64,000 nucleotides of DNA. Source: Macrolepiota albuminosa (Eukaryota; Basidiomycota; Agaricomycetes; Agaricales; Agaricaceae). The notes beneath the pieces are model-generated. The model ran no database searches, was not told the origin of the DNA, and was given only the letters and a program-made list of their open reading frames with translations. This document shows positions 834 to 63,993 of this stretch, piece after piece. Each line of letters starts with the position of its first letter. Position 1 is the first letter of the stretch. Position numbers and translations under genes: made by a program. Location: positions 62,001 to 126,000 of the forward strand of contig JAMWFC010000054.1 of NCBI GenBank assembly GCA_027475525.1, written 5' to 3'.

Positions 834-2805
834 TCAGCAGCCAACTACTTTGGGAGTTGCTGCGAGCCCGTCCCCTTGGGCCAGGGAGAGGGTCCTCGGC
901 AGGGACTGGTGGAGGGACGGAAGATGGTTGAGGGGGTGACGGAGATGTTTGTGCAGAAGATGTCCCTGAGGATCTTTGTTGAAGTGGGAACAGAGCGACA
1001 GTGAGAGTGGATAAGTCAGCGGCATGATGGGATTGGTCAGTGGCGAGGGCAGAGGTGTCACCAGTGGCAGGGGATTGGTCAGCGATGGGGTCAGGAGTGG
1101 TTTCTTCCTCTTCAACGATGGGTCCAAGTCCACTGTGCCCTGTTCAGGGGATTGGTCAGCGATGGGGTCAGGAGTGGTTTCTTCCTCTTCAACGATGGGT
1201 CCAAGTCCACTGTGCCCTGTTGATGCACTGCCACATCATCCTGAGCTGACGGACTGGAGGGACGGGTAGAGATGTGAAGTTGATTCTGCAAAGTGTCAAC
1301 CACACCCCAAATATTGCGGATCTGCTCTTCCATCTGACGGATACAGAGATGTGAAGTTGATTCTGCAAAGTGTCAACCACACCCCAAATATTGCGGATCT
1401 GCTCTTCCATCTGACGGATACGTCCGGCGTGGTCTTCAAGTGTCTCACCCGCAAGAGAAACATTTGTTTGCAGGGTTTCTATGCGGCCACCGAGCGTGTC
1501 GACCTGAGTCTGGTAGCGACGGAAGAAGTCCTCAATACGCGGTAACCAGCTCGCCTCAGCCGTGACAAACCTGTCCCGCACCTGCTCCCCAACATTCCGC
1601 AATGCTTCCTGGAACCCATTCTCCATCCTGTCCAAACGGCTCTCCACCCCTGCCATTACACCAGCCACAATGTCCTCACTGTGACTAGACTCCATTGCCC
1701 GCTCCTTGCCCTTTCCCTTGACCGGAAGAGGGTCTGCTGGGCGGTTGGAGGTCGACGGTTGGGATGGACGGATGGACGGTTTTGATGGTCCCGCGATTGG
1801 ACTGGTTGGTTCATCTGCTAACTATTGGTTAGCTATTTGAGCAGGAAAAGAGTTTCGTACCGTCATCACTCTCAATAATCGTCACTGACTTCTTTCTCAG
1901 TGGTTTTTCCCCCTTTCCCTTGTTGCTGGGCTTGATGGTTTTCTTGACAATCGTCAGGCTGCATGTTTGTTTGTGAATGAGCTGGCAGGGATCGCATGCA
2001 GTGCCGCCCTTTGTCCTGACACACTGTAGCTGCTTACTTGCACAATATTGGCAAGGGGGGTTGATGTGCTGACCCTCGCGACAAGGTGCTGTCCTCAGAT
2101 ACCTGCCCAACAGCATCCCTCCAGTAATTTCCCCCTTCAGTATTCTGCCCTCTTGTTCTTCCTCTTCCTCTTCCTCTTCATCCTCGTCCTCATCCTTGTC
2201 CTCCTGCTCCTTCTGTCGACGATAGGTACCAGGAGGAGGTTGACCAATATAGGTCACCCGTTTTGGCTTCTTGGGATTTGGCAACGGACCAGACAAATCT
2301 CCTGCCGCTGGAGGACTCGGTCGTTTTCTCTTCTTCGGAATCGGTGACGGACCAGACAAATCTCCTGCTGCTGGCCTATGACCTATCCGGTCTTCTCGTG
2401 CCGGTGCCGTCGACGGACCGGCCTCGGTCGACGGATCAGGTCGTTCTTCGCCCCCACTTGGTTCCTCCCCCCTTCCGCTCCTCTGGGTCCATTTCTTCAC
2501 AGCGTCCTTCAACCGCCTGGTCATATCCTCGTCAGAAAGCTTGCTCTGGAGTAGCGGGATAACTTTGTTGATGAAACTTCTCCTGGCATCAAGGAGGAGT
2601 TTCTTGTCATCCTTGACGTCCCTAACCTTGAACCACATGTCAATCTACAGGACGACTATTAGTGCATGTCTATTAGGCAGGAGTGCTTGTATCTTACCAG
2701 GTCCTTCTGCTGTGCTTTGAGTTGTCGCAGGTCTCCTCTGAGAGCAAGGTATAATACTCAAACATCCGCGTCAACGACCCGTTGGTGGAGTTCTTTGTTA
2801 GACAT
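834..2805 (-). CDS. Cysteine-cluster plus coiled-coil protein, multi-exon (TE-like family)
   Basis: Start ATG probably at 2805 (MSNKELHQRVVD). A GT-AG intron sits at about 2644-2692, and a clear 46-nt intron at 1815-1860 has donor GTACGA, branch CTAAC and acceptor TTAGCAG. Joining across it links ESDD to EPTSPIAG and on to the second exon. Domains in order: a charged helical N-terminus, a Pro/Ser-rich linker, a long acidic Glu/Asp run, then a cysteine cluster (CQYC-X4-CVRTK... CDPC-X6-C) of a kind common in Agaricomycete hypothetical proteins, and finally a coiled coil (MESSHSEDIVAGV onward). Two exact 77-bp duplications (1068-1221 and 1268-1421) break the last exon and are probably assembly errors. 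A decayed copy lies at 59.7-61.3 kb, so the gene is repeated and may belong to a transposable element. Function unknown. Confidence 0.6.
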
Positions 2806-2864
2806 GGCGGATGGAGGATTAAAGAAACGGACGAGAACTTTACACGAAGCAAGTTCTGAAAATA

Positions 2865-3780: not shown

Positions 3781-3869
3781 TGCACCAGTTGCAGTAAAAT
3801 CTCTATCCGTTCAAATTCTGTATGGGTCCGTTTGTGCACTACATGAACACCGTCCTGACTTGTAGCAAG

Positions 3870-3955
3870 CGCCTGTGGTACAATGGAATATTCATCAATT
3901 GATATTTCATATTGTGCACAAGAAGTGGGTTCGACTCCCACTAGTTCACATTATA
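3870..3955 (+). repeat. tRNA-derived SINE-like unit
   Basis: A box TGGTACAATGG (near 3876) and B box GGGTTCGACTCC (near 3927), followed by CACTAGTTCACA. Same family as the array just upstream but on the opposite strand. Confidence 0.5.
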
Positions 3956-4332: not shown

Positions 4333-4410
4333 GAAGTAGGAGTAGAACCCACCACTGTACACAATATTGAATATCAATAAATGAATATTCCACTGAACCA
4401 CTGGGACTGG
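4333..4410 (-). repeat. Degenerate tRNA-derived SINE-like unit
   Basis: Minus-strand A-box-like TGGTTCAGTGG and a decayed B box (GGGTTCTACTCC). The unit is partly repeated by an exact 77-bp duplication starting at 4383. Confidence 0.4.
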
Positions 4411-4959
4411 TTGCACCGCTGATGTCAGCTGGCTCACATGCCGACATCAGCTACCGTCTGAATATTCCACTGAACCACTGGGACTGGTTGCACCGCTGAT
4501 GTCAGCTGGCTCACATGCCGACGTCAGCTACCGTCTGCTACCGTCCGCTGGCATGCCAGCGGACAGCGGACACTCACGCACCCTCTTCCGCCCTTCCCCC
4601 TCTTTCTCCCCAGTGCCATCCTCTCCACTCCCCACACTACCTCACACGCCACCCCCATCCACCACATGCACCCTGCTTCCCTCCTCCCCCCTGACCTGAC
4701 GTCCGACGTCTGCTACGTCTGCTGGGGTACCAGCGGACACCCACGCTCCTCGCTTCCCTCCTCCCCCCTGACCTGACGTCCGACGTCTGCTACGTCTGCT
4801 GGGGTACCAGCGGACACCCACGCTCCTCCCCTTCCCCCTTCCTCCTCTCCCCACCCCCATCCCTCTTCCGCCACCCCCCACGCTCTCCGAGACGCCACCC
4901 CATGCGGCGGACACCCACGCACCCTGTTTCCTTCTCTCCCGCCCTGATGCCGGACGATG

Positions 4960-6142: not shown

Positions 6143-8049
6143 TGGTCCAACTAATACTGAAGATAATATTTTCAGCAAGTTGTAATATTTATCTACACTG
6201 GCTCAAAAAACTGCCCTAATGTTTGGCCTTTTTGGAAAGATTCACATGATGTCCAACAATTACCTAGATAAAAAATCATAGAAAATCACATGACATACAA
6301 CTGCATCCTGGCTTTATAATGATGTATAGATCATGTGATTTGAACAAGAACCGGCTTATTAATAAATCAAACAAAATATTCAATCATTGGGGCAGTTTTT
6401 TGACTCACTTTAATTTTCATATTTTCTCAATACTTTTCAGCAGTAGAAAATGGAAACATCTTGTGGGAAGTATAAACAATGCCACGTGACCTTGCTTGTC
6501 CTAATTTGACATGTTCAACTTCAATCAATCACCTTGACATTCTACCACCATCATGTGACTTATTTCTGCTGCCAATTACTTTTCTGTTGCTTTTCTTCTC
6601 AATAAGGGGTATTCTCAGCATCAAATCCAAGCAAAAACTGGCCTGGAAAAGGGCACTGTGGAGAGGATCAGCAAGAACTGGAAAGCAACAAAGAGAATCA
6701 TCCTGGAGGTCATCTTTCCAAGCTTACAGCATGTGACAAACAGTTTATTATTTGTCAAATTACTACTGAGAAGCTGAATAATGCTGTTCAAGCCACACAG
6801 TTCATTAATTCTGTTATCTCCAGTTCTGTTAATCCTCAGACTGTCAGAAATGCATGAAAGGAGGCAGGTTTTTGCTCAGCAATAAAGAAGAAAGTTCCCA
6901 TGCTCAAGTTTGCTCAGTATCATGAAAACTGGACAGTAGAGGAGAAAACAATTTAATAGTATGAGGCTGCATGGGTTGGAATGGAGTTGGGAAGCTCATA
7001 GAAGTTCAGGGAAAGATGGATGCTGCATAGTATTGTGAGATTTTGGATGAGGAAGTGGTAGAAAGCTTTGAGAAGTTGGAAATGAAGGAGGAAGGACAAT
7101 ATTTTCAGCAAGACAATGACCCAAAACACACCTCCAAACAGGCAACAACCTAGTTTTCTAATAACAACATCATTGTGATATCCTGGCCTGCCCAATCCCC
7201 TGACCTCAATCCCATTGAACACCTCTGGGTTTACATTAAGCACAAACTTTTGAAGTATGAGGTATCCCCTAAAGGAGTGCATGAGTTGTGGGAGAGAGTG
7301 GTCAAGGAGTGGAATGAAATACCACCAAAAAGTATGAGGTATCCCCTAAAGGAGTGCATGAGTTGTGGGAGAGAGTGGTCAAGGAGTGGAATGAAATACC
7401 ACCAAAAGTATGTAAAAGCCTCAGAGAGAGCATGCCTAGAAGGATCAAAGCAGTTATAAAGGCAAATGGAGGCCATACCAAGTACTAGATATAAAAATTA
7501 GAGTAAATTAGAGTGGGTCAAAAAACTGCCCCGATGATTGAATATTTTGTTTGATTTATTAATAGGTGAGTTCTTGTCCAAATCACATGATCTATACAAA
7601 GTATGAGGTATCCCCTAAAGGAGTGCATGAGTTGTGGGAGAGAGTGGTCAAGGAGTGGAATGAAATACCACCAAAAGTATGTAAAAGCCTCATAGAGAGC
7701 ATGCCTAGAAGGATCAAAGCAGTTACAAAGGCAAATGGAGGCCATACCAAGTACTAGATATGAAAATTAGAGTAAATTAGAGTGGGTCAAAAAACTGCCC
7801 CGATGATTGAATATTTTGTTTGATTTATTAATAGGTGAGTTCTTGTCCAAATCACATGATCTATACAGTAATTATGAAGCCTGGATGCAGTTGTTATGTC
7901 ATGTGATTTTCTACAATTTTTTGCTTAGGTAGTTGTTGTACATCATGTGAACCTTTCCAAAAAGGCCAAACATTGGGGCAGTTTTTTGAGCCAGTGTAGA
8001 TAAATATTACAACTTGCTGAAAATATTATCTTCAGTATTAGTTGGACCA
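6143..8049 (+). mobile_element. Tc1/mariner-like DNA transposon with long inverted repeats, decayed
   Basis: Bases 6143-~6415 reappear inverted at ~7775-8049: about 270 bp, starting TGGTCCAACTAATACTGAAG. Inside each arm the motif CACTGGCTCAAAAAACTGCCC is echoed inverted at the inner end (GGGGCAGTTTTTTGACTCACT), so each terminal repeat carries two outward/inward binding-site-like boxes, as in IR/DR-type Tc1 elements. The inner box is preceded by TA (6194-6195; 7997-7998), the Tc1 target. The right part is locally duplicated: a 77-bp repeat at 7254, and a ~269-bp segment with the transposase 3' end plus inner repeat occurs twice (7331 and 7600). Transposase remnant inside. Confidence 0.8.
6590..7482 (+). 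pseudogene. Tc1/mariner transposase remnant (DDE, first Asp lost)
   Basis: Reading across frames shows a helix-turn-helix-like N-terminal part (QHQIQAKTGL-type, GTVERISK) and, after about 6930, the catalytic C-terminal half. That half includes QQDNDPKHTSKQ (second Asp) and WPAQSPDLNPIEHLW (third acidic residue), the Tc1 signature. Between 'HENWTVE' (~6940) and the QDND motif the frame is broken several times and the segment that should carry the first catalytic Asp is missing. The C-terminal end (VTKANGGHTKY, stop) is intact in the duplicated copy at 7600-7757. The element cannot encode an active transposase. Confidence 0.8.
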
Positions 8050-8061
8050 GACTGCTTCCTC

Positions 8062-8600: not shown

Positions 8601-8751
8601 AAACCCCCCCCCAACTAAGCCTCCACCCTAACCTCACTTTGTTCGGTTAGGGCTCCAAGTATGTATAGAAAACTCAATGCTCCCCCCCCAACTAAGCCTC
8701 CACCCTAACCTCACTTTGTTCGGTTAGGGCTCCAAGTATGTATAGAAAACT

Positions 8752-9370
8752 CAATGCTTATTCCCAGCCTCAACCTCACTTCGTTTGGTTAAGGCCTCGG
8801 TTTTCACAACTCAATGCTTAATCCCAGCCTCAACCTCACTTCGTTTGGTTAAGGCCTCGGTTTTCACAACTCAATGCTTAATCCCAGCCTCAACCTCACT
8901 TCGTTTGGTTAAGGCCTCGGTTTTCACAACTCAATGCTTAATCCCAGCCTCAACCTCACTTCGTTTGGTTAAGGCCTCGGTTTTCACAACTCAATGCTTA
9001 ATCCCAGCCTCAACCTCACTTTGTTTGGTTAAGGCCTCGGTTTTCACAACTCAATGCTTAATCCCAGCCTCAACCTCACTTTGTTTGGTTAAGGCCTCGG
9101 TTTTCACAACTCAATGCTTAATCCCAGCCTCAACCTCACTTTGTTTGGTTAAGGCCTCGGTTTTCACAACTCAATGCTTAATCCCAGCCTCAACCTCACT
9201 TCGTTTGGTTAAGGCCTCGGTTTTCACAACTCAATGCTTAATCCCAGCCTCAACCTCACTTCGTTTGGTTAAGGCCTCGGTTTTCACAACTCAATGCTTA
9301 ATCCTAGCCTCAACCTCACTTCGTTCGGTTAAGGCCTCGGTCTTCCACCACTCAGTGCTCAATCCCAGTT
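8752..9370 (+). repeat. 60-bp minisatellite, about 10 units, inside Helitron unit 3
   Basis: Units of exactly 60 bp, core CAACCTCACTTCGTTTGGTT, repeat about ten times with only TTCG/TTTG and a few end-unit changes. Each contains a short inverted repeat (CCTCAACC...GGTTAAGG). The degenerate single-unit motif recurs at 9850-9900 and 10190-10240, so the array expanded from a Helitron-internal sequence. The open frame across it exists only because 60 is a multiple of 3. Confidence 0.9.
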
Positions 9371-9720
9371 TGCCTCAACTCTCAGAGCATTATTGTAAGC
9401 TAAATTGAATTTTTCTTGAATTTTTCAGATTTCTTTAAGCATTTATAAATCTCAGAAAAACTCAAGTCAGTGTATCAGTAGGCCCCAAATTTTTTCTGAT
9501 TTTTCAGTGATTTTATCTGAATTTTCTAAGCATTTCTAATGCTGAAATGAGCCAACTCTTATGTTATTACCCTAAAAGGAAGGTTCTTGGTCAGCCTTGG
9601 TAATCACATTTTTTTCCCAGGCCTTGTCGCATTCTTTATGGTATTACCCTAAAAGGAAGGTTCTTGGTCAGCCTTGGTAATCACATTTTTTTCCCAGGCC
9701 TTGTCGCATTCTATATAGAC

Positions 9721-9782: not shown

Positions 9783-10583
9783 CCCCCCAACTAAGCCTCC
9801 ATCCTAACCTCACTTTGTTTGGTTAGGGCTCCAAGTATGTATAGAAAACTCAGTGCTCATTCCCAGCCTCAACCTCACTTCGTTCGGTTAAGGCCTCCAC
9901 ATTCCACAACTCAGTCCCTTCCACAACTCTCAAACCATTATTGTAAGCTAAATTGAATTTTTCTTGAATTTTTTGGATTTTATTAAGCATTTATAAATCT
10001 CCAAAAAACTAAAATCAGTGTATCATTAGCCTTTGAATTTTTCCTGATTTTCTGGTGATTTTCCTGGAATTATTTGAGCATTTTCCACTAACATTCTCCT
10101 GAAAAACAGAGCAATTGAATTTTTCTTGAAATTTTCAGATTTCTTTAAGCATTTATAAACCTCAAAACCGCATTTCACAACTCAGTGCTCATTCCCAGCC
10201 TCAACCTCACTTCGTTCGGTTAAGGCCTCCACATTTCACAACTCTCAGAGCATTATTGTAAGCTAAATTGAATTTTTCTTGACTTTTTCAGATTTCTTTA
10301 AGCATTTATAAATCTCAGAAAAATTCAAGTCAGTGTATCAGTAGACCTCGAATTTTTTCTGATTTTTCAGTGATTTTATCTGAATTTTCTAAGCATTTCT
10401 AATGCTGAAATGAGCCAACTCTTATGTTATTACCCTAAAAGGAAGGTTCTTGGTCAGCCTTGGTCAGCATTAGTTTTTCCCAGGCGTCGTCCCATATATT
10501 ATAGACGAGCTACAAAAGGAAGGTTCTTGGTCAGCCTTGGTCAGCATTAGTTTTTCCCAGGCGTCGTCCCATATATTATAGAC

Positions 10584-10645
10584 GAGCTACGATTCGTGCC
10601 TTTGGCACGAATTTCGTAGCTCGTTGGGGGCTTCGCCCCCAAACC
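10584..10645 (-). other. Helitron 3' hairpin (unit 1)
   Basis: CGAGCTACGATTCGTGCC and GGCACGAATTTCGTAGCTCG pair over 18 bp with a two-base bulge; the inner hairpin is GGGGGCTTCGCCCCC. Part is repeated at 10672 by a 77-bp duplication. Confidence 0.75.
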
Positions 10646-10745
10646 CCCCCCAACTAAGCCTCCACCCTAACCGTGCCTTTGGCACGAATTTCGTAGCTCG
10701 TTGGGGGCTTCGCCCCCAAACCCCCCCCAACTAAGCCTCCACCCT

Positions 10746-11223
10746 AACCTCACTTCATTTGGTTAGGGCTCCAAGTATGTATAAGTAACTTAGCCTCCAC
10801 CCCAACCTCACTTCGTTTGGTTAGGGCTCCAAATATGTATATAAGTAACTCAGCCTTCACCCCAACCTCACTTCGTTCGGTTAGGGGTTCCAAATATGTA
10901 TATTCATAACTCAACTTCTATCATGACTTACTTTCATTATGTCTTACTGGTTCAAGCATATGTTGTTAAAGAATAGAAAGTTCACATTTATCAAGAAATG
11001 ATGTTACAATTCCAAGTTATATATATTCTATTAGTACAGTATCAACAAATATCAAGTTAGATGCTAAAATATAAAAGTTAGTAATAAGTAGGTAATTAAC
11101 AATCATACTCACATTTGTAAACCCAAAAAATAATGCTACAATTCCAAGTTATATGTACAGTATCAAGTTAGATGCTAAAATATAAAGTTAGTAATAAGTA
11201 TATAATTAACAATCACACTTACA
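10746..11223 (-). other. Non-coding 3' region of the Helitron RepHel unit
   Basis: AT-rich, with an internal diverged direct repeat of about 130 bp (TACAATTCCAAGTTATAT..., near 11005 and 11136). No gene seen. Confidence 0.5.
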
Positions 11224-11234
11224 TTTGTAAACCA

Positions 11235-14200
11235 TTAAGAACTTCTTGATACACAATATTTGCAGTCGCTCTTGATGTATTTTCTTCTGACAAAATCACC
11301 TTTGTAAACCATTAAGAACTTCTTGATACACAATATTTGCAGTCGCTCTTGATGTATTTTCTTCTGACAAAATCACCTTGATACAATCTCCTGATGTGCA
11401 TCGAGAAAGTGCAACATAGAGTTGGCCATGTGTAAAAACCAGTGATCAAAGGTCTAATCCAACATGCTTGACTGATTGCCCTTGAGACTTGTTGATAGTC
11501 ATAGCAAAGTCCGGTCCAGGTAATACTGATCATTTTGAGGATGACCAATATCAGGATATGTGGAAGAAATCAATCCAGTGATAGAATTGTCATCACAGAT
11601 TACTGATCATTTTGAGGATGACCAATATCAGGATATGTGGAAGAAATCAATCCAGTGATAGAATTGTCATCACAGATTATCCTTTCAGGCAGTTTGACTG
11701 TTTCTCCAGGTCCTAGATTTTTCCCTGCACCAACATCCAACAACCAAGCTGCATGAGCAATATTGTCTACAGTCTGCTCCAACCACATATTTTGGACCAA
11801 GTAATGGACTTGAATATTATCCCAAAGTCGGCCCCTTTTGAGTGAAGCAGCAATCATCTGCTGTCTGAGTCCATGTGGAACCACTGGAAGAGTTTGCCTA
11901 AAGTCCCCTCCAAAAACCACAGTGACTCCACCAAAGGAAATGTCATTATTGAAGATGTCTCTGAAGCCACAATTAACAGAGTCAATGGCATTTTTGTGTT
12001 GCATTGGAACTTCATCCCAAATGACAACTTTGGTGCGAAGTATGAGCTGTGATAACTGAGTTCCTCTCTTGATATTGGCAATGGATGTGTCAAGAGCAGG
12101 AATGGGAATTTTGAATCTTGAATGAGCTGTCCTACCCCCTTCCAACAATAAGGCAGCAATGCCAGATGATGCTATACATAATGCCACATCTCTATTGGAA
12201 CGAACTGCAGCAGCCAGAGTATTGCAGACAAAGGTTTTGCCACATCCTCCAGCACTGTGAATGAATAGCATCCTGCCCAAATTGTTGTTCACTGAGTTTA
12301 TGACAGCATTGAAAGTCTCCAGTTGTTCCACATTGAACTTGGCCTTGTTACTCTCCACTCTTTGCTTGAGCTCCTCAACATCATAATTGGTTTCATCTTC
12401 TAAAAGCCTGTTGCCTAGAAGAATGATCAGTGTTCAAGTCAATCTTTTATGCAAATGCCAATTACCTGGAACTATGTTCCAATTCTGTTGAGCCTCTGGC
12501 ATGTTGGGAAAGTCTTTCAGAGTTTTTCCAAAATTCATCAAAGTGTCATTGATGAGATAAAGGCCATAGTCATAGACATCCTCATTGGTAAAGACTCGGT
12601 CCCTGTATTGCCTAGTATGTTCCAATCTGTGTCGAAGATCATCACAGATAGAATGTTTGAATTCGTCCCATAGAGCCTCAGGAGTGGCAGGAGCACAGTG
12701 GAATAGAATAGTGCAAAACAGCTGCCTGAGAGCTGATCCTAGTTGGATTGGAGCAGCTTCAGTGAGACACTGCCTCCATTCTGCATCATCCTCCAAAAGA
12801 CCTAGAGCTTTGCATGCTTCTTGATAAGTGGGATAGATATGGCCATTGACTGTCCTGAGATCAGCCCATGAAGTTGCATTGGTTACAACAGTCAAGAGCA
12901 TCCTGAGATAGAACCTTTCTCCCTGTCTTGGTGAAGCAAAATACATCCTTCCAATTGCTGTCCCTCTCTGCCTCTCCTTCCAACTCTGTTTAGATGCTTC
13001 ATAAACAAACTTGGTTGGAAAGTTCTGATAAGTGGTGTTATTATTGGAAAACCTGGTATTGGCTTCAAACCAAGCTGTGAGTGCAGTCTTGTCTGCATTA
13101 GGTCTAGCAGCCACCACCTGTATTGGTTCATCATCTGGGAAATAGACTTCATGCTGGTTTTCCAAGTGCACAGGCAATCTGTACACTGAAGGATATTCAG
13201 CATGCATGTTGAATTCAAAGATGTGCCAGCAAGCCTCAGGAGCAGAAATGTATCTGGCATCCAAGTGTTCCTTGATTTCATCCCTCTCCTCCCTAGCAAT
13301 CTCCAAAGTTGTCCTATCATGGCCCTTGTAGATGTACTTGTGAATGTATTTGATTGCATCCACTGAAGCACAGACTTCCACATTGATATGACATTGGAAT
13401 TTGGCTGAGAGATATGGATTGTATGAGACAACATTACGATTGTCATAACGACGACCATGCTTTTCAAAAAAGCGGCCATTGTTAGGTCTGGCATATTGGG
13501 GATAGCCATCATCACCATACTGTGTAGCTTCCTGAAATTCCTTGAGATATCTCTTGGAACATTTGCCATCTACCATGCACTTGGCATTGGGAAAATCTGC
13601 TCCACATGGACCATGAACCATATTGGTAGTAACAACCTAATAACAAAGGTCAGTTACTGCATTGATAATTCAAGCAAAGCCAATACCTGATACAATTGAG
13701 GCTGAGTCACTGGATCAGGAATTTGAGCAGAAACAATAGTGTCCACATGAGCTGCATCTTTGATCTTGTCATGATGATGGAAAAAGATCAAGATATGTAT
13801 ATGTGGAAGTCCCCTCTTTTGAAATTCAATGGTATGGACAGATGCCACACATTTTCCAAATAGACCATCTTTTATGTCCTTCAAAAGAGCATTCTTCTTG
13901 AGTTCAAATACTCTGGCAACAATATCTGGATGGTCAGAAGCTGTTTGCCTCTTTCCATTAACCATAGGTTCTTTCAACAGAGCCTCTTCAATTTCTGGCC
14001 ACTTTGGATTGGCAGTCATGGTGATGAAGAGATCTGGTTTATGGAAATGCCTGCAAATAGCCATAGAGTCCTGGAATAATTGCTGCATGTGTCGTTCACT
14101 TCCAACATGAGAAGAGGGAAGGACTACCCGTCGGCTTTGCCTGCGTAAGTCTTCATCTCCAGCAGCCGCATCGACCACCCCTTGATACACTTCAGCCCTA

Positions 14201-16757
14201 ATCTTCTTTTGATTGTGCCGGACCCAATTGAGCTTGTTCTGCTCAGTTGATGCCCATGCATCCACAACATATTGCTGGAACAGTCTGCCACTCCAAAGCA
14301 ATGCAGCATTAGCTTCCAAAGCTCTTTGCTGCAGCCTATATGCATAATATGCAGTTTGGCTAACTTTTTTGGCTCTTTGTTCTCCTGCTGGTCCAAATTG
14401 AGATTGAATATCGGTGTGAAATCCAGGTTCTCCAGTTGGAAATATGATAGTGTAATGCAGAGGAGTGTAATAGGGGTGTAGATGGCTGATTCGCTTCAAT
14501 TGACCTCCATGCAGATGCAGGACTATGTCACGGTGATCTGATCGTTCTTCAGAACCATCTCCTGGTATAATTGCAGCAACTCCTTCCTGTTCATTAGGGT
14601 TGTTATAGCGTCAATGGTCTCCAAAGTCAGCTCTAAGTTGAACAGAAAGCCTTTGTGGTTGGCCTTCAGAAACTTCTGTCATAATCTGCTTTGCAAGCTT
14701 GTATAAGCCAATAAAGGGATTGACTCTATGAAGCATATCCTGCAAAGAGGCCATTATCTGAGGATCCAATCTAGGATTGCTTTCCTGACGAAAAGCCAAT
14801 TGTTGATTGTGATCGTAGAAGTAGAGTTGTGCATACACAGGATGATCACCTTCAGTTGGAAGCAAAGCACCTGTCAGATGATGGAGCTCTCCATTAATCC
14901 TAAAGCTGTATGGTCCTGGAGCATTCGTAATCGCATGGTCAATTTTGACTCCCAGAGATGTAAATGCAAAGGCTGCATTGTATTGGCGAATAGATGCTTT
15001 AAAAGCATCAGAAAGAGGATGGTGACCTTGGAGTAAGCCAAGCAGTTCTGGTGGAGCGTCTGCAAGTCTGGGCAAATCAATCTGGCCTTGTAGACAGCAC
15101 ATGCCAAATTTTGTATGATGTCTAGTAGAACTGGTGAGCTTTTCAGCATCCCAGTGTAGAGCCTGACAGTGTGGACATATGACATCCATAAGACCAAGAT
15201 AATGTGCTGAGAGTTCATCTATATAAGGCTGTCTTCCTCTTGGAAGAGCATTGATGCCTTGAATATGATCAACCCTTTGTAGGATGGGAGGTGCTGGTAG
15301 ATTTTGCACAGGTGGATCCACATATTCTAAGTCCTCCTCTATATTCTCAGCAGGATTATTATTAGGCTGTCTTCCTCTTGAAAGAGCATTTATAGGTTGT
15401 TGTAGAATGGGAGGATGAAGAGGAGGTTCCAGTTGCTCTGCTGCTAGATTTGGCTGTCTCCTATTGTCAACAGGATCATCCAGATCTTGAGCATCTAGAT
15501 TGTCAAAGTCCTCCTCCAAATCAGCTGCATGTTCTTGTTCCCAGCCTTCTAAGATCCTTTGAGCCCTAGCCTCATTCAAAGGCCTATATTCAGGATTGAG
15601 ATCTACATCCTGTTAATCTTTCTTAGTCAATGCAACATCTGAAAGTTATCTTTCTCTCACCTCTGGCTGGTGTAATATCTGTAGTTGTCTTCCTTGCTCT
15701 CTGAGCTGTTGTTGCTCATGCAATACTGCTAATGCCTGTTGTTGCCTCTGTTGCTCTTGCAATACTGCTAGTGCCTGCTGTTGTCTATCCTGCTCCTCAG
15801 CTGCAGCAATATGCCTCAACCTTTGTTGGTCTTGCAATGCTGCTAATGATTGTGCTTGTATAGGAGCAACCTGCTGTCCCTCTCTATTCCTAAGTGCAGG
15901 TGGCAGTGGCAGTGGCATTGTGAAGTTTGGCAAAGCAGCTCTATGCAAAGCAGGCATTCTAGGTATAGGATTCTGTAAAGGAGCATCCCAACCTTCAGGC
16001 AAATGAGTTTCAGGTATACTCATAGCAGTCCCACCAACTACAGGCTGATTGACTGATCCCACTCTATGATCTCTTCCATGCACAGCAGCTGGTAGAGGTG
16101 CTACTATTGAAGGCACATAAGGAGCTCTATGTGCAGGAAGAGGTAGAGGTGGTATCATTCTAGGAATAGGATTTTGCAAAGGGGCATTCCATCCTTCAGG
16201 TAAATGAGTTTCAGGAATAGCCCTAGCAAATAGATCCTCAGCAACAGTTGGTGGTCTAACAGGCCTCCTCAAAGAGCTAGAAGTATTTCCTCCAGAGCTT
16301 GAACCAATCTGATTATTTCCCCCAGTTCTCATATCCCCCAATCCTGTAGTTCCAAGTTGTACATCCTCAGATGCAAATAAGTTCATAGCAACAGTTGGTC
16401 CAATAGGCCTTCCCAAAGAGCTAGAGGCAATCTGATCATTTCTTCCAATTCTCATATCCCCAGTTCCCATATCCCTCCAATAGGCCTTCCCAAAGAGCTA
16501 GAGGCAATCTGATCATTTCTTCCAATTCTCATATCCCCAGTTCCCATATCCTAGTTCCCATATCCCCAGTTCCCATATCCCCAGTTCCATAATGAAGTGG
16601 TATAACCACTGAAGTAGATCTTCTACTTCTATTTGCACGGCGCTCATCAGGATCAGTCATTTGTAACTGTTGTAGCCTGCTTTGAATCCTAGCCTGCTGT
16701 CTTTGACCTTCAGGAGTACTGGGTCCATTATTAGAATGAGTAGTTGAAGATTGCCTG
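11235..16757 (-). pseudogene. Helitron RepHel protein (HUH Rep plus PIF1-like helicase), nearly complete
   Basis: Read 16757 to 11235 with GT-AG introns at 15610-15660 (GTGAGA...AACAG), about 13640-13687 and about 12420-12466. N-terminus: Pro/Gln-rich with two copies of PETHLPEGW and a coiled coil. Next a zinc-binding region (CPHC... CCLQGQ). The Rep domain has the two-His motif GLPHIHILIFF and the paired tyrosines KYIHKYIYKG. The helicase has Walker A (AGGCGKTF), Walker B (VIWDEVPM) and GGDFRQTLP. Defects: TGA at 14611-14613 and in [13 protein letters not shown], both where Arg (CGA) is expected, and loss of the helicase middle between ~11600 and 11548. The last gap coincides with a 77-bp duplication (11524-11677), so it may be an assembly misjoin. 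Rep cleaves and rejoins single strands; the helicase unwinds DNA during rolling-circle transposition. Confidence 0.85.
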
Positions 16758-34137: not shown

Positions 34138-35235
34138 TTGCATCAGCAATGGCAAGAAGAATTTGCCGACATGGTCAACGGGACCAAGGAGGAGCTTCCG
34201 CCATGGTGGGAGGTGAACCATGAGATCAATCTCATAGATGAGAGCAAGCAGTATAAGTACCACTTGCCGCGCTGCCCGCGCACCCTCCAGGAGCAACTAC
34301 GCAATAAGACTAATCGCTATTTGAACGCTCAATGGTGGTCCCCATGCACCACCGCTCAAGCTGCACCATTATTGTGCATCCCGAAGAAGGATGGAACCCT
34401 TTGAACAGCTCTTGATGCATGTAAGCGCAATGACAACACCATAAAGGATGTAACTCCTTTACCAGATCAGGAGGTGATCCGGGAAGATGTGGCTCGGGCG
34501 AAGTATCGCTTGAAGATTGACCTTACTGACGCTTACGAGCAGGTGCACATTTGCACCAAAGACGTACCCAAGACCATATTTGCATCGATCATGGGCACGT
34601 TCACGAGCAACATAATGCGGATTGGAGACTGCAATGCTCCAGCAACTTTCCAGAGGCTAATGACCTCTATCTTCCGAGACGTAATAGGACGTTTTATGCA
34701 CGTCTACTTAGATGACATATTCATCTACTCGGATTCTATGGAGGAGCATGAGCAGCACCTCAGAGTCGTATTCGAACGACTGCGCAAGTACAAGTTGTAC
34801 TTGAAGTGGAAGAAATGTGAGCTCTACGCTCAGAGTATAGACTGCCTAGGGCATGTCATAGATGAGCGGGGTATCCACCCCGATCAGGACAAGCTCGATC
34901 GCATTTGGGAGTGGCGCACACCTCAAAACTACAATGACATCCAACGATTCATTGGCCTTGTCAACTACATATCGAGCTTCTTGCCCGATGTCACAGCCTA
35001 TACTGGGCCACTTATGGCCATGACACAGAACAGGTCACCAACTACATATCGAGCTTCTTGCCCGATGTCACAGCCTATACTGGGCCACTTATGGCCATGA
35101 CACAGAACAGGTCACCATTCAATTGGAGGCCGTTGCACCAGCGGTGCTTTGAGATGGTCAAACGGATCTGTACAAAGACTCTGGTGATTCGACCAATCGA
35201 CCCTAGACAGGACAAGCTGATATGGCTCATTTGCG
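34138..35235 (+). pseudogene. Gypsy reverse transcriptase
   Basis: RT blocks in order: LNAQWWSPCTTAQAAPLLCI, PKKDG, KIDLTDAYEQVHI, GDCNAPATFQRLM, the catalytic VYLDDIFIYS (about 34710) and SIDCLGHVIDERGIHPD. TGA at 34402 interrupts 'TL*TALDA'; the relative at 54.2 kb has Cys (TGT) there, so the ancestor was CGN (Arg). A 77-bp duplication (from 34962) repeats YISSFLPDVTAYTGPLMAM and shifts the frame; discounting it restores the frame into TQNRSPFNWRPLHQRC. RT copies element RNA into DNA. Confidence 0.88.
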
Positions 35236-37120: not shown

Positions 37121-37426
37121 CCTTACAGCGCGTCTGACGATGCGCTATTCCCTAACAGGGCAACCCCGGGCCCCTATGATTTTGGGGCTCAAAACAATGA
37201 CAAATGGTTTGTTGAGTGCATCATTGGGCACCAGTGGACTGAGCATAACACGCTTGAGTTTGAGGTACGATGGTCCCTCGGGAACACAACATGGGAGCCA
37301 CACTCCCATTGCTCCAAGTTGGCGGCACTTGACCGTTATTTGGAGTTTGGTCCCTCGGGAACACAACATGGGAGCCACACTCCCATTGCTCCAAGTTGGC
37401 GGCACTTGACCGTTATTTGGAGTTGA
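37121..37426 (+). pseudogene. Gypsy chromodomain
   Basis: WFVECIIGHQWTEHNTLEFE and VRWSLGNTTWEPHSHC follow the integrase tail in frame and match the chromodomain core (WEP motif), placing the element among chromoviruses. A 77-bp duplication (from about 37270) repeats the second half. Such domains target integration to marked chromatin. Confidence 0.75.
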
Positions 37427-42118: not shown

Positions 42119-42934
42119 TGTCAGGTTCTGCTGAGTCGGGGGCTTTCCAGGAAAGCAATCGCCCTTACAATGCGGACTTGACCCACAGATACTCGGGTGT
42201 CTGGAACTCCGGGGCTAGGACTCCGGGGTTCAAGACGTGGACAGGGAAATCCCGGGAGAGGGGACTTAGTCTGGGGGTTTTGGGTGGTGGGTGACGGGGG
42301 AGTTCGGGTGGGGGTCGAGTCGTGAACCGGAGGTTCTAAGACGAGACCAAGTTAGCAAATTAAAGTCGCAAAGTGCGTACCAATCTTAGAGCACGCGAGT
42401 ATTCAAGCGTGCCAGTCAAAGCGTGCCAGTCAATGCGTACCAGTCAAAAGTGCGTACCAATCTTAGAGCACGCGAGTATTCAAGCGTGCCAGTCAAAGCG
42501 TGCCAGTCAATGCGTACCAGTCAAGCAGAGGGCACGCAACAATTCAAGTAATGCAATGTAATATCAAGACTCGTGAATACAACGGGGAACTATGCTATAA
42601 GTACTATGGGGCCAGGTCTCGGGGTTCCAGAGTGTCTGGGATGGGTTCCGAGAGTCATTGAGTAGTGGGCAGGGACTGGACTGTATACTTGGATCGCACG
42701 TGTGGGGCATGCAATCAATTGGCGCAGAGGGAGCTGTGATGCGTGATGGCCGGGAGTGAGTCACGTGATCCAATTGTTGATCGGGGCTGGTGGTGGCTGA
42801 TGGCGGTCCTGATGCGCGTGATGATGGTGTCGGTAGTTGTGATGGCGGGGCGTGTCCTGTGGGGTCGGAGGGAGGGTCCCGGGTGGTGTTCCGGAGGTGT
42901 CCTGGGGTGGATCCGGAGGGGAGGGGTCGTGACA
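42119..42934 (+). mobile_element. Solo LTR, family B (816 bp), TSD TATAT
   Basis: Begins TGTCAGGTTCTGCTGAG and ends GGGTCGTGACA, with TATAT on both sides (42114-42118, 42935-42939). A second family member starts at 63138. GC- and CpG-rich against an AT-rich background. It contains AGCGTGCCAGTCAA-type short repeats and a 77-bp duplication from about 42371. It appears to sit within an intron of the surrounding gene. Confidence 0.88.
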
Positions 42935-46730: not shown

Positions 46731-49277
46731 GTGATAAAAAATTTAAAAGAAAACTAGCCTTGAAAGTTATAAAAATGCAATAAATTTTTTGGAGGTATTA
46801 TTATGTACTTAGTCTAGATTTCAAGAGGAAAGAAGATTCAAAAATTGAGAGAGCCTTTTGCACATTAAAATGTGCAAAAAAAGTTGCTAATCTCAACAGA
46901 CAAAAGTTCAGAGTTATACACAAAGAAAAAGCACAGATTCAGATCAGGTTCTATTGATACTGTAGCCAAATTGCAAGATGCTCATTTTGAATCAAGTAAC
47001 AGATACTCAGACTCTGACTAGGAGAATGAACTTCAAGATTATTGGGGTATACCTTGTAAGGGTGTGTCAATACACCTTAGTTAAAGCCCAGGATTATGTC
47101 TAAGCCTCTATTGACTGGAGCTAGAATGGTACTAGTTGACAAGAAAAAGTAAGTAGTAACACAGGACTATGGTGTAATAGTAACATGCGATGCAGGTTCA
47201 AGTCCTGCTAGTTCCAGTTTTCCTGAGGTTGTTAGTTCAATCATCTGGAAGTGTTACAAACCTATACACTGTTTGTTGCAGTCAGCAAGTCTGTGAATGA
47301 AGAGGAGACACATACAATGAGAAATTCCTAAGCTTGGATAAGGAAATTTTAGGCTTAGCCATAACACTTTTTTGCATTGGATCAGAGAGTCTATATTATA
47401 AAAACTGAGCTTGGATAAGGAAATTTTAGGCTTAGCCATAACACTTTTTTGCATTGGATCAGAGAGTCTATATTATAAAAAGAGCGGCTTCCATCACAAT
47501 CAGTCTATGTTATAGGCATATTAGACCTTGTAGTTTAATACATTTTTTGCTCTATTTACACACAGGTGTGGGTGAAATTTCATTTGGTATTTTACATATA
47601 GTATACCGGATAATAACTGTATATATGCATAGGAAGAAGAGAGAGAGAAAACTTATATAGAAAATGAACTTGATACTTCCTATACATCTGTTGGTATAGT
47701 ATTATTATTATTTATGAACAAATAGCTGCTGAATATTAGCAGTAAGACAAATGGTAACAAAACAGACAAGTTTAAAGTCTTGTTAATAAAGTCGTTGATG
47801 AGTTGAGTATGAGTGAATAATGATTTGAAAAAAGTAAGCGAGATAAAAATACTAATAAGAAATTTAATAGAAACTTCTAGAGCATTCTAGAACATCACAT
47901 GATCTGCAACAAACTTGTGAGGAACTGAAGACATTCGGGCTTGTAAGAACTCTTTCTCTTACTTATGTAAGAGAGTCGGGAATAAATTAATATTTTATAT
48001 CATGCACAAGAGGCAAATTTCAACTCCCTCTATTGCATATATAGCAGTTAGAACCTCTTCTGCTCTGCTTTTGACTCAATGATATATAATATTATCTTTT
48101 GACCTGCTGAACTAATTGATATTTAAATCAGTCTATAATAAAGCGCTATGGCTTAGTGCATAATACTAGAGTAATATTTATATATAATCCTCACTATGTT
48201 TTGTGATCTAGCAGAATATTGTCAATTTATGTTCCTTCTAATGCACAATAGAAGAGTTTGACTACCTCCTTGTGTATTCATCAACTAGTATGTGGTTTTT
48301 TTTGCTAATGTTGTAGGATGTAGTACTTGGTTGCAAGTAGTACTAATAGTTTTGGGGCTTTCTTGAAGTCTTATAAAGTTGCCTCTAATCTACACTGATG
48401 CTTGATAATAAACTTAAGGTGTTGATAAGGATTACTTCCCACAATATGTATAATACTCTGAAATGTAGAGGTGTCTTAACAAACTCCAGCCTAAGTAATT
48501 TACTCCCTGGGAACCACCAAGCCTTTGCCTATCAATTCTCTGGTTATTCTCTACTCTACTTGGACTATTTATACTAATTTTTCAGTGCACAGACCACCAG
48601 ATCACATGACTTTTGCTCTTGACCTCCCAGCATTCCTAACTTAATTTGTTGTTCCATTTTCCATTTTGATGATGCATGTTTTAGTGCCACCATTCCATTT
48701 ATCTCTTCCTTTCTCCATTCAATGCATGTTTTAGTGCCACCATTTCATTCATTTCTTCCTCCCTCTATTCAATGCATGTGCTACCATTCTATTCATTTCT
48801 TTTGACATCCCTCCATGCTTCTTTCCCTTTTCTCTTTTAGTCATGTCAAATCAGGCATTGTCAGATCAAATCTTGATCTAGATCATTACAATTTGATGCT
48901 ATTTCATCACCTCTGCCAGCATCCATGCTTTTTCTTCCCATGACAATGGTTGGACTATTGTTGAGTTGATAGCTTGAGCTGGTCCCTGCTCTTTGTTCTG
49001 TACTATCTGTGTATTTATTGAGGTGTTTTTGGAGATATAATTTGTTGAGACTGCTACCAGGAGGCTTACAGTTTTCAGCCTTATAATTAAATGTTTATTT
49101 TGACTCCTGGTACATGTTGTGTTTCTGACTGCTAGTACAGCATTGTATCAATGTGTCCTATCTCCCATCCATAAGAGTGGCATAATAAATAGATTTGTTA
49201 TCAGCAAAATAGGACAGTTAATCTTAACAACAAGTAATTAATGAAAAAGCCATGAATTGTTGTAACTAATGATTAAA
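46731..49277. other. AT-rich repeats, no supported gene
   Basis: Includes a tRNA-like SINE unit at 47160-47217 (GGTGTAATAGT, B box AGGTTCAAGTCC), a 77-bp duplication from 47331, a degenerate SINE-like unit near 47975-48045, and a ~50-bp tandem repeat (AATGCATGTTTTAGTGCCACC) at 48660-48790. Confidence 0.45.
47160..47217 (+). repeat. tRNA-like SINE unit, shortened
   Basis: A-box-like TGGTGTAATAG and B box AGGTTCAAGTCC only about 30 nt apart; too short for a tRNA (about 55 nt, no anticodon arm). Confidence 0.4.
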
Positions 49278-51440
49278 TTACTTGTTTGATATGTATTCCT
49301 CCTCTTCATTAGATTTATGTAATATGTCTAAATAGAAGAAATTCTCATCAACTAGGTAGTCTTCTGTCAAGAATACAAAGTTGTCCAATATATATGGCCC
49401 CTGAGGTCTAGTATGTATGCTGTTTTCATAATTTGCTATCAAGCATGACAAAGAAGATAGTGAGAGTGACTCTGACATATCACTAGACATATCATTAGTA
49501 CAATCAGCTGGATTGAAAGGGCTAATGGGCTTACATCAATCATGTTGTGCTCTAAAGTGAAATTCTTGTTTTGTTGACATAAATGAACTCTGTTTACCAG
49601 TGCTAAATTATAACTTACATTGTTGATACAATTCATTACTTCTTCTCTTATCCTTATGTCAAGTCATATATGTCTCATATTCCTCCTACTCCCAGACATT
49701 GTTACCAGTAGGTAGGCTTGAAGAACAGAACTGTTGAAAAGGGAAAGACTGAGATTAAAAAGCTGTTACATCAAATAGTGGTGGAAGGTTTTCTTTATTA
49801 TTGGCTGCTATGCCTTTATCTGTCTCTTCTGCTGTCACAACAAATAGTGGTGGAAGATTTTCTCCATCATCAGCCACCATATATTTACCGCTACTGATTG
49901 CCATGTGTCTGCTGTCACTAGCTGCTACAGTCTCAATTGCTGTCAGTTGTTCTGCTCCTTTACTAATAATAATTAGAGGTGGCATCAAATTGTCTTCTGT
50001 CTTCTGTTCTGCAGGAATGAACAATTAAGGCTAAAAATCATTTTCCTTCTTCCTTTTTGCAGGAATAAACAGAGGAGACAAAGAATTGTCATTCATCTCC
50101 TCTTCTGTAAGAATAAACAATGGAGGCAACAATTCATCTTCCATGTTCTCAACAATGAACAAAGGAGGGATGTCTTTACTTCTACTCATGACCTCCAAGT
50201 CTATATCATGAATGGGAATATCCACCTGGTCATCATCAGATGCTTCTAGCTCCATGAATATCCAGCAGATATGAGCAGAAAGAAGTTGAGATGCTGCTTG
50301 AACCACAATGCAAGAGTGTTTCATTGTGGAGCCATACACCAGTCCAGGTTTACTTTTACTGTAGAGGTGGTAGAATGGATGTTGTGGGTTTGAGTGTTCA
50401 ATATGCGTTAAGAATGGCCATTGGGGAGAGTTGACATCAGAGAGAGTAGTAGGATGGGCTATAGAGAGGCAGTCTTGAAGATCAGGTTGCTTACCATCAA
50501 TACTGTTGGTATGGGACTCGATGCCTGTCAATTGGCCTGTCCGAGCAGGATCTGTGGACCTGGCAACAGAACTGACAGCAGAACTAGCAACAGACTTGTT
50601 GCCAGCAAACAAGTGGATCATATCATTGGCTGTTGGCATATGTTCTGTCCTATCTAGCAACTGCCACTTGTCTAAGGCTAGAAGCATCTGCTGGTGGCTC
50701 CTGGTAGATCTGCTACCTGCAAACACATGGCACAAATCGTCTGGTGGTGGAATAGACATTATTCCATCTGCAAATGGCAATGTCATGGTAGCTAGTGGTT
50801 GCATGCCAAGAAGCTTTCAAGAGAGTGGAAGCCTTGCTGATGTACAAGAAGGCAATGCTCCAGTGTTTCATTGCTTAAAATCTGAACATCCTCTTGGCCA
50901 ATGTGGTTCCACCAATCACAGCCATACAAATTCCTGATTAGACCTTGACGGCCATCAATAAACTCCAGGATCTCTGTGGGCAAGGTTTGCTGATTTTGGA
51001 GAGGGAAAAATTGGCTCATGCTTTTGATAATGTCTGAGACATTGCAGACCACATTATTTAGTGATGCAGCCCCCATATATGACAATACAAAGTTCTATAG
51101 CATACATTCAGATCTTAATATATTTATACATTCTGAAGTTATCTTACCAACTCCTTGTCTAGATGCTGGATAATTCATGCCTCTTCCGCTTCAAAACTTG
51201 GCACAAGATTGCCAAATATGGAAAGTGCTGCAATGAGGCGCAATGCAATGTAGTCAACAACCTCTTGCAAATTTTCTAATACAGTAGCTTGAGACAGGAC
51301 ATTGTGTAGTACAACCGCAATGCAATGTAGTCAACAACCTCTTGCAAATTTTCTAATACAGTAGCTTGAGACAGGACATTGTGTAGTACAAAGGTAGATG
51401 CCATTGCACTGTTGCCAGTAGAAGCAGATACTGCTATGTA
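49278..51440 (-). pseudogene. Unknown multi-exon gene with repeated PPLF motifs
   Basis: Minus-strand exons: FVLHNVLSQATVLENLQEVV (near 51400), an intron at about 51153-51098 (GTAAGAT...TATAG), FVLSYMGAASLNNVVCNVS, LYGCDWWNHIGQEDVQIL, then a frame from 50804 to 49755 with TAG and TAA close together at about 50031 and 50025. Here two similar segments occur, DLCHVFAGSRST and DMIHLFAGNKSVAS. They are followed by about seven PPLF-type motifs (PPLFIV, PPLFIL, SPLFIP, LFIP, PPLIII, PPLFVV, PPLFDV) each in an acidic setting. A last exon ends SDMSESLSLSSL ... NEEEEYISNK at 49278. No family recognised. A 77-bp duplication (from 51241) breaks the first exon. Confidence 0.4.
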
Positions 51441-51784
51441 TCAGATTTTTGTGCCTTTTTAAACAAAAGTGATTTTCAACAATTTTATTGCACATGACTG
51501 TCACAAATCCATTCTAATCTTCCACTGATAGAAGCAAGCTATAATAATGTTCTGCATCTGTCAGTTCAATCTGTCTCTGCATCTGTCACATCAATCTGTC
51601 ACTGATAGAAGCAAGCTATAATAATGTTCTGCATCTGTCAGTTCAATCTGTCTCTGCATCTGTCACATCAATCTGTCTCTGCATCCACCATTTTCACAGC
51701 AGATCTCTTGCAGTTTGGGGGAAAATAAAATTAGGAAGCACCCGCTTAAATTTATCAATTGCCATTGAGGCCAATTCTTGCCAC
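51441..51784. other. Spacer with a duplicated segment
   Basis: A 77-bp tandem duplication from 51523 (ACTGATAGAAGCAAGCTATA). No gene recognised. Confidence 0.4.
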
Positions 51785-52457
51785 TGTCAGAGGACTCCTC
51801 ATTTCTTCTTTTTCTCACTCCTTATCTCTTCACTCTCCCTTCATTTATTCTCTTATTTCTTCTGACATTATTTCATTTTACTGTTTCTATTCTTTCAACA
51901 CTATCTGTTAGTACTACTCTCAGCCCTTGAGATGCTCTGGTTCTTTAGCTACCATTCAGACAAGTGTGGGCCCTTCAGCACCGCTTCCAGACTGCTTATA
52001 TAAGCCAGAGTTTGCCTTTCTGACTTTTAAAGTCCGGAGTTTTCCTGCCTTGTTTCACTGCTTCCAGACTGCTTATATAAGCCAGAGTTTGCCTTTCTGA
52101 CTTTTAAAGTCCGGAGTTTTCCTGCCTTGTTTGCACAGTTGTTTGGTTAGTCAATTTTCGAGTTTTTAAGGTTTTGTTGTACTGTACAGTTGTTTCCCAT
52201 GCTTCAGAAGCCCCAGAAGTGTCCAACCTGGCATAGGGAATTTTAAGGTTTTGTTGTACTGTACAGTTGTTTCCCATGCTTCAGAGGCCCCAGAAGTGTC
52301 CAACCTGGCATAGGGAATCTCTAGACTTGTTCTCTTTGGATCTCCCTCTGCCAGGTGAGTAGTTATTATGATATTGTTAGTACATACTCTAATACATTTT
52401 GGATCTCCCTCTGCCAGCTGTGTGACTGAGCCACAGCCTCTAGAGGTTGCTCTTACA
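51785..52457 (-). mobile_element. LTR, family A (third copy)
   Basis: Minus-strand TGTAAGAGCAACCTCTAGAG ... CTGACA, like 21319-21840. It is lengthened by two 77-bp duplications (from about 51983 and 52164; the latter has one mismatch). The flanks GCCAC and GGTTG do not match. It lies against the end of the decayed gypsy relative. Confidence 0.75.
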
Positions 52458-61281: not shown

Positions 61282-61509
61282 GTAACTGTTAGTTATGAGC
61301 CAGAACTATCTTGTGTGGATCACACAGTGCTAAATCAGACTGCATTATTGGATTTGACTAGTACTAGAGTGAATACAAGATGTTGTCTTACATAATACTC
61401 TACTGTATGCAGATAGCATTGTTGATGCTAGTAACACATGTGATGCTCCATTACATACTCTCCAATGAGACCAAATACTCAGTCTTAGGAGAGGAGTTGA
61501 AATAGGAAT
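61282..61509. other. Short spacer, nothing recognised
   Basis: AT-rich, no gene. The sequence just before 61510 may be the upstream RT part of the next element, too decayed to read. Confidence 0.3.
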
Positions 61510-63137
61510 GATATGCATGATAGTGCAAACATGTTCATTCAAGACTATGCCAGGATCTCAGAGCCTATTAATAGACTCACTAAAGATGTGGCTTTTGTCT
61601 GGGAGGAAGAACAGAAGGAGGCCATGAAGGAGATGAAGAGGAGGTTAGCAAGTTGTGCAGCTCTAAGACCTATAGACTATGAGTCTGAAGGAGCTGTCAT
61701 CTTGGCAGTAGACACTTCTTGGATGGCTGTTGGGTTTGGGATCTTCCAAGAAGACAGTACAAATCCAAAACAGAGGACTTGTGCTAGACTGGGGTCCATT
61801 ACCTTGAATGAGAGGGAGGCTAGGTTTTCACAACCTAAGAGAGAGCTGTATGGTCTTATGAGGGCATTACAAGTTAGCAACTATTAGTTACTAGGGTGCA
61901 GAAAGCTTATTATTGAGAGTGATGCTAAATACCTCCAGGGCATGCTGAGCAATTCAGGGATTATACCTAATGCTACTATAATGCACTGGGTGGAAGCTGT
62001 ACTTATACATTACTTCACCTTGAGGCATGTGCCAGGAAAGACTTTCAGTATAGATGGTCTATCTCACAGAGAAAAGTAACTAGGAGATGAAGAGTATCCT
62101 CCTGTGGACCCAGCTTTACTAGATGATCCAAAGCCAATGTCCTTTGAGTATCCAGATGAGATCAACAAAGTACCTGGCTGGGAAAAACATGTGCCCCTCA
62201 AGTTAGAAGACTTCATGGATCAGATTGATACAAAAGGAGGCTAATTGTTAGCAGTCACTCCAGAGGATGTACAGGAGGAAGTGGAATTGGGTAGAGACAG
62301 GGAGCAAGGGATAGCCTTGGGCTTACAAGAGCAGAGTACTAAAGCAGGGACTACACTGAATCCAGTAGCAGTCTTAACTTTATCTACATTCTTGCTGCCA
62401 GAAGGATCCCCTTCCTCTACTGTAGAAGAGTACCAAAAAGAAAGGAGGACTGAGAAAGGGAAATCCTTAAATAATCTCTTACCACTAGTACAGGATTGGC
62501 TTAGGCATCCTGGAAAGGTACCAAGAAAGGTGAAAGAGGAACAATTTCTTAGATTCACAAGACAGTTCTTCTTTGACCTCAAGGGAAGGTTTTACAAGAG
62601 AGAAGAAGAGGGGAAGCATAAGCTAGTCATAGAGAAGGACAGGAGGATGTACATGTTAAAGTCAGCTCATGATGCACTTGGTTACAGAGGGACCTTTGCA
62701 ACTAAGGCTTTACTGGAGGAGAGGTTTTGGTGGCCAGAAATAGAAGCTGATGTAAAGTGGTATATAGACACTTGTCATGCTTGCCAAGTTAGGCAGAAAG
62801 TTGCAGTATACAGGCAACCAGTGGTAGCCTATACTCCTAGTATAGTTGAAACCATACACTTGGATACCATGCATATGATGCCAAGTTCAAATGAATACAA
62901 ATATATTGTACATGGGAGGTGTGCTTTAACCTCATGGATGGAGGATAGACCTTTGAAGAAAGATAACCACAAGTTGATTAGGCAGTGGTTGTTTAAGGAA
63001 GTGGTCTGCAGATGGGGCTGTGTAAGCACCATTGTAACAGACAATGCTGGGCAGTTCACAAAGGTGGTACATTGGCTATCTAAGAAATATAGGATACAGG
63101 GCATAACTATTGCTCCCTATAATTCTAGAGCTAATGG
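61510..63137 (+). pseudogene. Second gypsy lineage: RNase H and integrase fragment, truncated
   Basis: FIQDYARISEPINRLTKDVA opens after the RT thumb. RNase H: ILAVDTSWMAVGFGIFQED, FSQPKRELYGLMRAL, then after a stop VPGKTFSIDGLSHREK. Integrase frame 62245-63137: HDALGYRGTFATKALLEERF and CHACQVRQ (zinc region, with Tyr in place of the second His), IHLDTMHMM (first Asp), IVTDNAGQFTK (second Asp), then YNSRANG, where an LTR inserts just before the expected catalytic Glu. This is the common Agaricomycete gypsy type, distinct from the 29.5 kb element. CpG-poor, so older than the LTR that cuts it. Confidence 0.85.
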
Positions 63138-63993
63138 TGTCAGGTTCCGCTGAATCGGGGGCTTTCCGGGAAAGCGACGCCCTTACGATGCGGACTTGAT
63201 CTACGGATACTCGGGTGTCTGGAACTCCAGGGCTAGGACTCCGGGGTTCAAGACGAGGACAGGGGTAATCCCGGGATAGGGGACTAGAGTCCGGGGGTTT
63301 TGGGTTGGAGGTAACTGGGGTTAGAGGGGGTCGAGTCGTGAACCGGAGGTTCTAAGACGAGACCAAGTTAGTAACTTAAGAGTCGTGAAGTGCGTACCAA
63401 ACTTATAGCACGCGAATACTAAAGCGTGCCAGTCGAAGCGTACCAAACGAGGCGTACCAGTCAAACAAGAGGGCACGCAATATCCAAGTAACAGTTATGC
63501 AATATCAAGACTAGCGAATACAGCGGAGAACTACACTATAAGTACTACGGGTCGTGTCTCGGGCTTCCCAGTTATGCAATATCAAGACTAGCGAATACAG
63601 CGGAGAACTACACTATAAGTACTACGGGTCGTGTCTCGGGCTTCCGGGGTGTCTGGGATGAGTTCCGGGGATCATTGAGTAGCGGCCAGGGACTGTATAC
63701 CGGGATCGCGCGTGTGGGGACGCGCGATCAATTGGCACGGAGGGAGTCGTGATGCGTGGGGCGTGATGCGTGATGGTCGGATGCGAGCCGCGTGATCCGA
63801 TCGTTGATGGCGGTTGATCCCGGGGTCCGTGATGCAGGGGTCCCGGGGGGCTGGCTGATGGCGATCATTGATGCGTGTGATGGCGGCGTCGGTAGCTGTG
63901 GGGGCGGGGTGCGCTATGGGATTGACGGAAGGGGTTCCCGGGCGGGGCTCCGGGGATGCCCCGGGGAGGTTCCGGGGGGGAGGGGTCGTGACA
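63138..63993 (+). mobile_element. LTR, family B, probably 5' LTR of an element beyond the window
   Basis: TGTCAGGTTCCGCTGAATCG ... GGTCGTGACA, homologous to the solo LTR at 42119 and richer in CpG. It contains an exact 77-bp duplication (from about 63492). The 5 bases before (AATGG) are not repeated after it (TCACC), so it is unlikely to be a solo LTR; an internal region probably follows past 64000. Confidence 0.75.

Follow-up and report, generated by a model that had tools for sequence, protein, structure and literature searches.

The doublings of a 77-base unit that recur throughout the window (the whole stretch of DNA analysed here, 64,000 nucleotides from Macrolepiota albuminosa) are almost certainly a genome-assembly artefact, in which the overlap shared by neighbouring pieces was left uncollapsed. 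The initial annotation had reported about 24 tandem duplications with this one period, and all 24 were found, each being a head-to-tail doubling of a 77-base unit. Twenty-two of the 24 starts given there were right within 4 bases, but two had to be moved (8611 to 8605 and 9566 to 9559). The match at 1068-1221 does comprise exactly 77 bases and ends on both sides. Mismatches had been ascribed to two sites only, which is too few: seven of the 24 units match at 76 of 77 positions, and 17 match at all 77. In the following list, each line is a 77-bp unit present twice (coordinates in the window, no strand assigned).

1068..1221, exact; unit at 29 further places, never as an adjacent pair
1268..1421, exact
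4382..4535, one mismatch (position 65)
4675..4828, exact
7253..7406, exact; left unit edge is a divergence point
8605..8758, exact; the second copy reaches with its final 11 bases into a 60-bp tandem array
9559..9712, one mismatch (position 6)
10437..10590, exact
10595..10748, exact
11224..11377, exact
11524..11677, exact; overlaps the end of a Helitron-like PIF1-helicase frame (11600-12433)
16398..16551, one terminal mismatch (alternatively, a unit of 76 bases)
30529..30682, exact; single in at least 28 other places; left edge is the divergence from the copy in L042
30742..30895, exact; single in at least 35 other places
34962..35115, exact; Gypsy-type pol region; single in at least 32 other places; frame shift of 2
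37271..37424, exact; left edge is where the other exact copy (L046) diverges
39593..39746, exact; one peptide read in two frames
42370..42523, exact
47328..47481, one mismatch (position 3)
51238..51391, one terminal mismatch (alternatively, a unit of 76 bases)
51523..51676, exact
51979..52132, one mismatch (position 4)
52164..52317, one mismatch (position 46)
63492..63645, exact; unit at 8 other places, several pairs ~10 kb apart

A further copy of the 7253 unit is found at 7599 as part of a 269-bp repeat (98% alike). The pairs ~10 kb apart suggest that the 63492 unit is perhaps LTR sequence.

The doublings extend well beyond the window. A scan of further sequence for period 77, as the initial annotation had proposed, revealed 46 more of them in 31 stretches of the same assembly (242,497 called bases; the assembly comprises 100.1 Mb in 129 contigs). 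This comparison sample consisted of 20 stretches of 10 kb (two of which hold ~5.4 kb of N each), ten mid-contig stretches of 5 kb, and one of 3.4 kb (L001) that is nested within L015 and whose bases are included in the called-base total. Among the two-copy tandem duplications detected in the window and the 31 stretches together (period 30-300, 96% identity; 306,497 called bases), 70 of 75 have the period 77, the remaining ones having periods of 37, 75, 76, 269 and 300, one each; the sole array with more than two copies has a period of 60 (and multiples). First-order Markov sequences as long as the window (20 of them) had a longest same-lag run of 14 bases over all lags from 30 to 300. A single dominant overlap length across the sampled assembly is what uncollapsed overlaps of a de Bruijn graph are expected to leave behind.

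The density of doublings is 24 per 64 kb in the window, 10 per 20 kb in the adjoining sequence, 31 in 159 kb at contig starts (17 stretches) and 5 in 50 kb in the mid-contig stretches; no doublings were detected in L015 (10 kb) and likewise none in the nested L001. The densest stretch, L009, has 13 doublings within its first 5.6 kb, and it also contains two weaker period-77 pairs (exact runs of 65 and 61) and one period-76 pair, all three being outside the count of 70. Long N runs open contigs 40 and 115 (L010:1-5463 and L019:1-5418), and in L010 a 77-base doubling begins at the first base past the N run. The G+C content of L003, L012 and L021 is 61-63%, that of the other stretches 39-55%; two of these three high-G+C stretches also have many doublings (5 and 6 per 10 kb).

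In a de Bruijn graph, pieces end at forks, and neighbouring pieces share the vertex. The doublings most probably arose in two steps: a short-read assembly of this type yielded graph edges that have exactly 77 bases, the branching vertex, in common with their neighbours, and a later step ordered these pieces head to tail into megabase sequences with the shared 77 bases kept. The assembler was presumably SPAdes-like with k = 77, and the joining was probably done with long reads or by another ordering step. Each doubling would then correspond to a graph fork, e.g. the edge of sequence common to several transposon copies, and would add 77 bases that are absent from the organism's DNA. A fixed k-mer overlap accounts for the single length, the indifference to composition and the single unit seen in other copies; furthermore, it accounts for the recurrence of each searched unit and for unit edges that coincide with points of divergence. 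The window contains no N letters, so the assembly pieces abut directly. The proposal of the initial annotation that a k-mer overlap was left uncollapsed at joins is supported by single-unit copies, recurring units and edges at divergence points; we infer the same origin for the sites beyond those tested individually.

Exact searches of the genome with five units (30529, 34962, 1068, 37271 and 63492) showed that every one of them recurs elsewhere, at 1, 1, 29, 1 and 8 further places, respectively; none of these other places holds an adjacent pair. The position of the unit edges was compared at five sites for which another exact copy with both flanks readable was available (30529, 34962, 7253, 37271 and L029:4726). 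At all five, the unit touches the first diverging base within its register freedom. The product of the null fractions is 0.0009, to which 34962 adds nothing, because four of its four possible positions touch an edge. This comparison leaves out 1068 (29 other copies) and 63492, whose other copy in L003 runs off the end of the stretch (the 40 left bases compared agree). At a fork, a unit is expected to recur with a different neighbour at its edge: all five searched units recur, and all five edges lie as expected, one of them being uninformative. The coincidence of unit edges with the points where copies diverge is what a fork in a de Bruijn graph with a 77-base overlap leaves as its signature.

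Single-unit copies were found by BLAST of the organism's own genome at all three junctions studied in this way. Both flanks with one unit are present at at least 32 other places for 34962, at least 28 for 30529 and at least 35 for 30742. These copies match as two pieces (left flank plus unit, unit plus right flank) that overlap by ~77 bases, and therefore the flanks neighbour each other there with one unit between them. The counts are lower bounds, since only 40 candidates were scored per search, of 714 (34962) and 487 (30529/30742) first-look candidates. For 34962, the 32 pairs were drawn from 33 left and 33 right pieces with an overlap of 78 or 79 bases, leaving out six junction-spanning matches (the window itself included) and six short pieces. 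For 30529, there were 28 pairs from 29 left and 30 right pieces (overlaps of 72-84), and for 30742, 35 pairs from 35 and 35 pieces (overlaps of 75-78), the window itself being excluded in both cases. Among the scored candidates, the junction was also matched straight across in other copies, in 8 cases for 30529, 4 for 30742 and 5 for 34962. Six such copies were read as DNA (L033-L035 and L037-L039), and they have their own 77-base doublings at this position or close to it. Such shared locations may reflect polymorphic positions common to the copies, an assumption that has to be added to the graph model; note that a duplication hotspot would look alike.

The junction at 34962 can also be compared at the protein level. 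Among 120 listed proteins homologous to the downstream frame, 22 align on both sides of it, and in all 22 cases 25-39 residues are repeated, with a frame change of +2 (77 equals 2 modulo 3). The proteins outside these 22 do not provide two pieces that meet the position criteria (e.g., P0001, whose upstream piece begins at the junction). At the 39593 doubling, two long open reading frames overlap, and the same peptide is encoded in both frames. Open reading frames of the window match a Gypsy-type retrotransposon (aspartic protease, reverse transcriptase, RNase H and integrase zinc finger), and the sequence at several junctions belongs to repeated elements. A Helitron-like element with PIF1 helicase and Helitron_like_N domains is present on the minus strand at 11600-14610.

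As the flanks of the three tested junctions (of 24) are adjacent in other copies, and for 34962 also in 22 proteins, the pieces joined there belong side by side in kind. The initial annotation had regarded every doubling as a contig end at which the order is doubtful. At these three junctions, the error supported by the comparisons consists of 77 additional bases per site, whereas a wrong order is not supported by them. Nevertheless, the left part of one repeat copy may have been joined to the right part of another, as each searched unit is common to 2 to 30 places in the genome. It has to be considered, therefore, whether many of the joins are in addition wrong, connecting separate copies of a repeat, or even unrelated places, through 77 bases that they have in common, which would be compatible with the artefact. 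The five searched units are each common to other places, and the partner across a join is ambiguous for this reason. On the other hand, the flanks are adjacent in 28-35 other copies at the three tested junctions (of 24), and in 22 proteins at 34962. Unrelated pieces are excluded at these three junctions by this adjacency, but a swap between copies of one element may have occurred. We regard widespread wrong joining as unlikely.

The length of the units is consistent with an uncollapsed overlap as well. Sixty sites in the window and the other stretches are perfect, with exact runs of 77 (26 sites), 78 (23), 79 (9) or 80 bases (2); the mean excess over 77 is 0.78 base, close to the 0.67-0.74 expected from chance extension. 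The two units are identical at 60 of 70 sites, and the other ten have one or two mismatches (11 mismatches in total), which speaks against a shared vertex. Nine of the 11 mismatches are located within six bases of a unit end. Three of these nine affect the terminal base; the register is not unique in these cases, and a unit of 76 bases would do equally well. A later edit of the piece ends must be assumed here, because an exact vertex would show no mismatches; the near-end mismatches could have been introduced by subsequent correction or polishing of the piece ends. Such clustering near unit ends, as after local editing, would also be in line with a different technical cause, in which the 77 bases were added at joins by gap filling, by read-end duplication or during polishing, without any de Bruijn vertex being involved. 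However, a cause of this kind does not itself predict that the units recur elsewhere (five of five), nor does it predict that their edges fall on divergence points, and we consider it highly improbable.

The other tandem repeats of the window differ from the doublings, with periods of 60, 75, 215 and 269 and copies that are 92-98% alike. At 8748-9368, a 60-bp unit is repeated ten times (98% alike), the array starting in the last bases of the 8605-8758 doubling. A 75-bp tandem duplication at 33217-33366 (25 codons, in frame, 98% alike) lies within a Gypsy-type aspartic protease open reading frame; this one is probably natural, located beside artefacts. The repeat at 2921-3396 (215-bp unit, 2.2 copies) holds a stretch that, by eye, resembles a tRNA T-arm in complementary form; no match in this repeat was obtained with Rfam at gathering thresholds. 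The window's single Rfam match is a tRNA at 47163-47216 (36 bits), which is short (54 bases for 71 model positions). A 5.8S rRNA was sought in the organism's own genome, with no match. One frame for ribosomal protein L4 is nearest to a protein of Termitomyces sp. Mn162 (90% identity, 83% of the query covered), which places the organism close to this genus of the Lyophyllaceae; the published T. cryptogamus assembly (PMC10021994; 70 Mb, 64 contigs, CANU) is distinct from the one analysed here.

This comparison bears on the possibility that the doublings are genuine 77-bp tandem duplications created by replication slippage, a repair pathway or staggered transposase cuts. The units are adjacent in the given sequence, and doublings recur at identical or neighbouring positions in some copies of one element, as such a process could produce. 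Yet biological duplications vary in length, and they would be expected to yield various lengths and copies diverging with age; what is found is a length of 77 in 70 of 75 cases and identical units at 60 of 70 sites. The contrast to the other repeats of the window, with their different periods and imperfect copies, argues in the same direction. Furthermore, there is no evident reason why a biological process should place unit edges at the points of divergence between distant genomic copies, and the reading frame of the homologous proteins is broken at 34962. A biological origin of this kind is in our view scarcely credible. Target-site duplication by a mobile element, which would leave an inserted element between the two copies, was rejected, since the units of all 24 doublings in the window abut with nothing between them. 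Head-to-tail copying of exactly 77 bases by a fungal process acting where repeat copies diverge, e.g. fixed-step template switching, is more improbable still, to a degree that makes it barely worth considering.

The uncollapsed k-mer (vertex) overlap between neighbouring de Bruijn-graph contigs, to which we attribute the doublings, is a known assembler phenomenon. The doublings share with it the one fixed length, the common letters and the location at forks caused by repeats. In contrast to it, the overlaps are found here inside megabase sequences, where they therefore pass as tandem duplications, and at about 10,000 places (a rough estimate). False duplications in assemblies have been described before (Genome Biol 2022, PMC9516828). 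They resemble the present case in that the assembly itself doubles sequence and thereby distorts genes, whereas our unit is fixed at 77 bp and its cause is read as a graph vertex rather than as unmerged haplotypes. The accessible parts of the literature searched contained no description of a 77-base overlap left in an assembly.

Extrapolated from 5 doublings in 50 kb of mid-contig sequence, and with a wide error, the ~10,000 sites would amount to ~0.8 Mb of false sequence genome-wide. A scan of the period spectrum, in which one sharp peak appears at the overlap length of the assembler, is a cheap test that can be applied to any deposited genome. For the fungus itself, the doublings are very probably not a real biological feature, judged from the sequence comparisons presented here. 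As 77 is not a multiple of three, every doubling within a coding exon introduces a spurious frameshift, and genes and transposons would be falsely broken in this way. For users of the assembly, this means that the ages and intactness of transposons as well as the numbers of pseudogenes and of tandem repeats would be misjudged.
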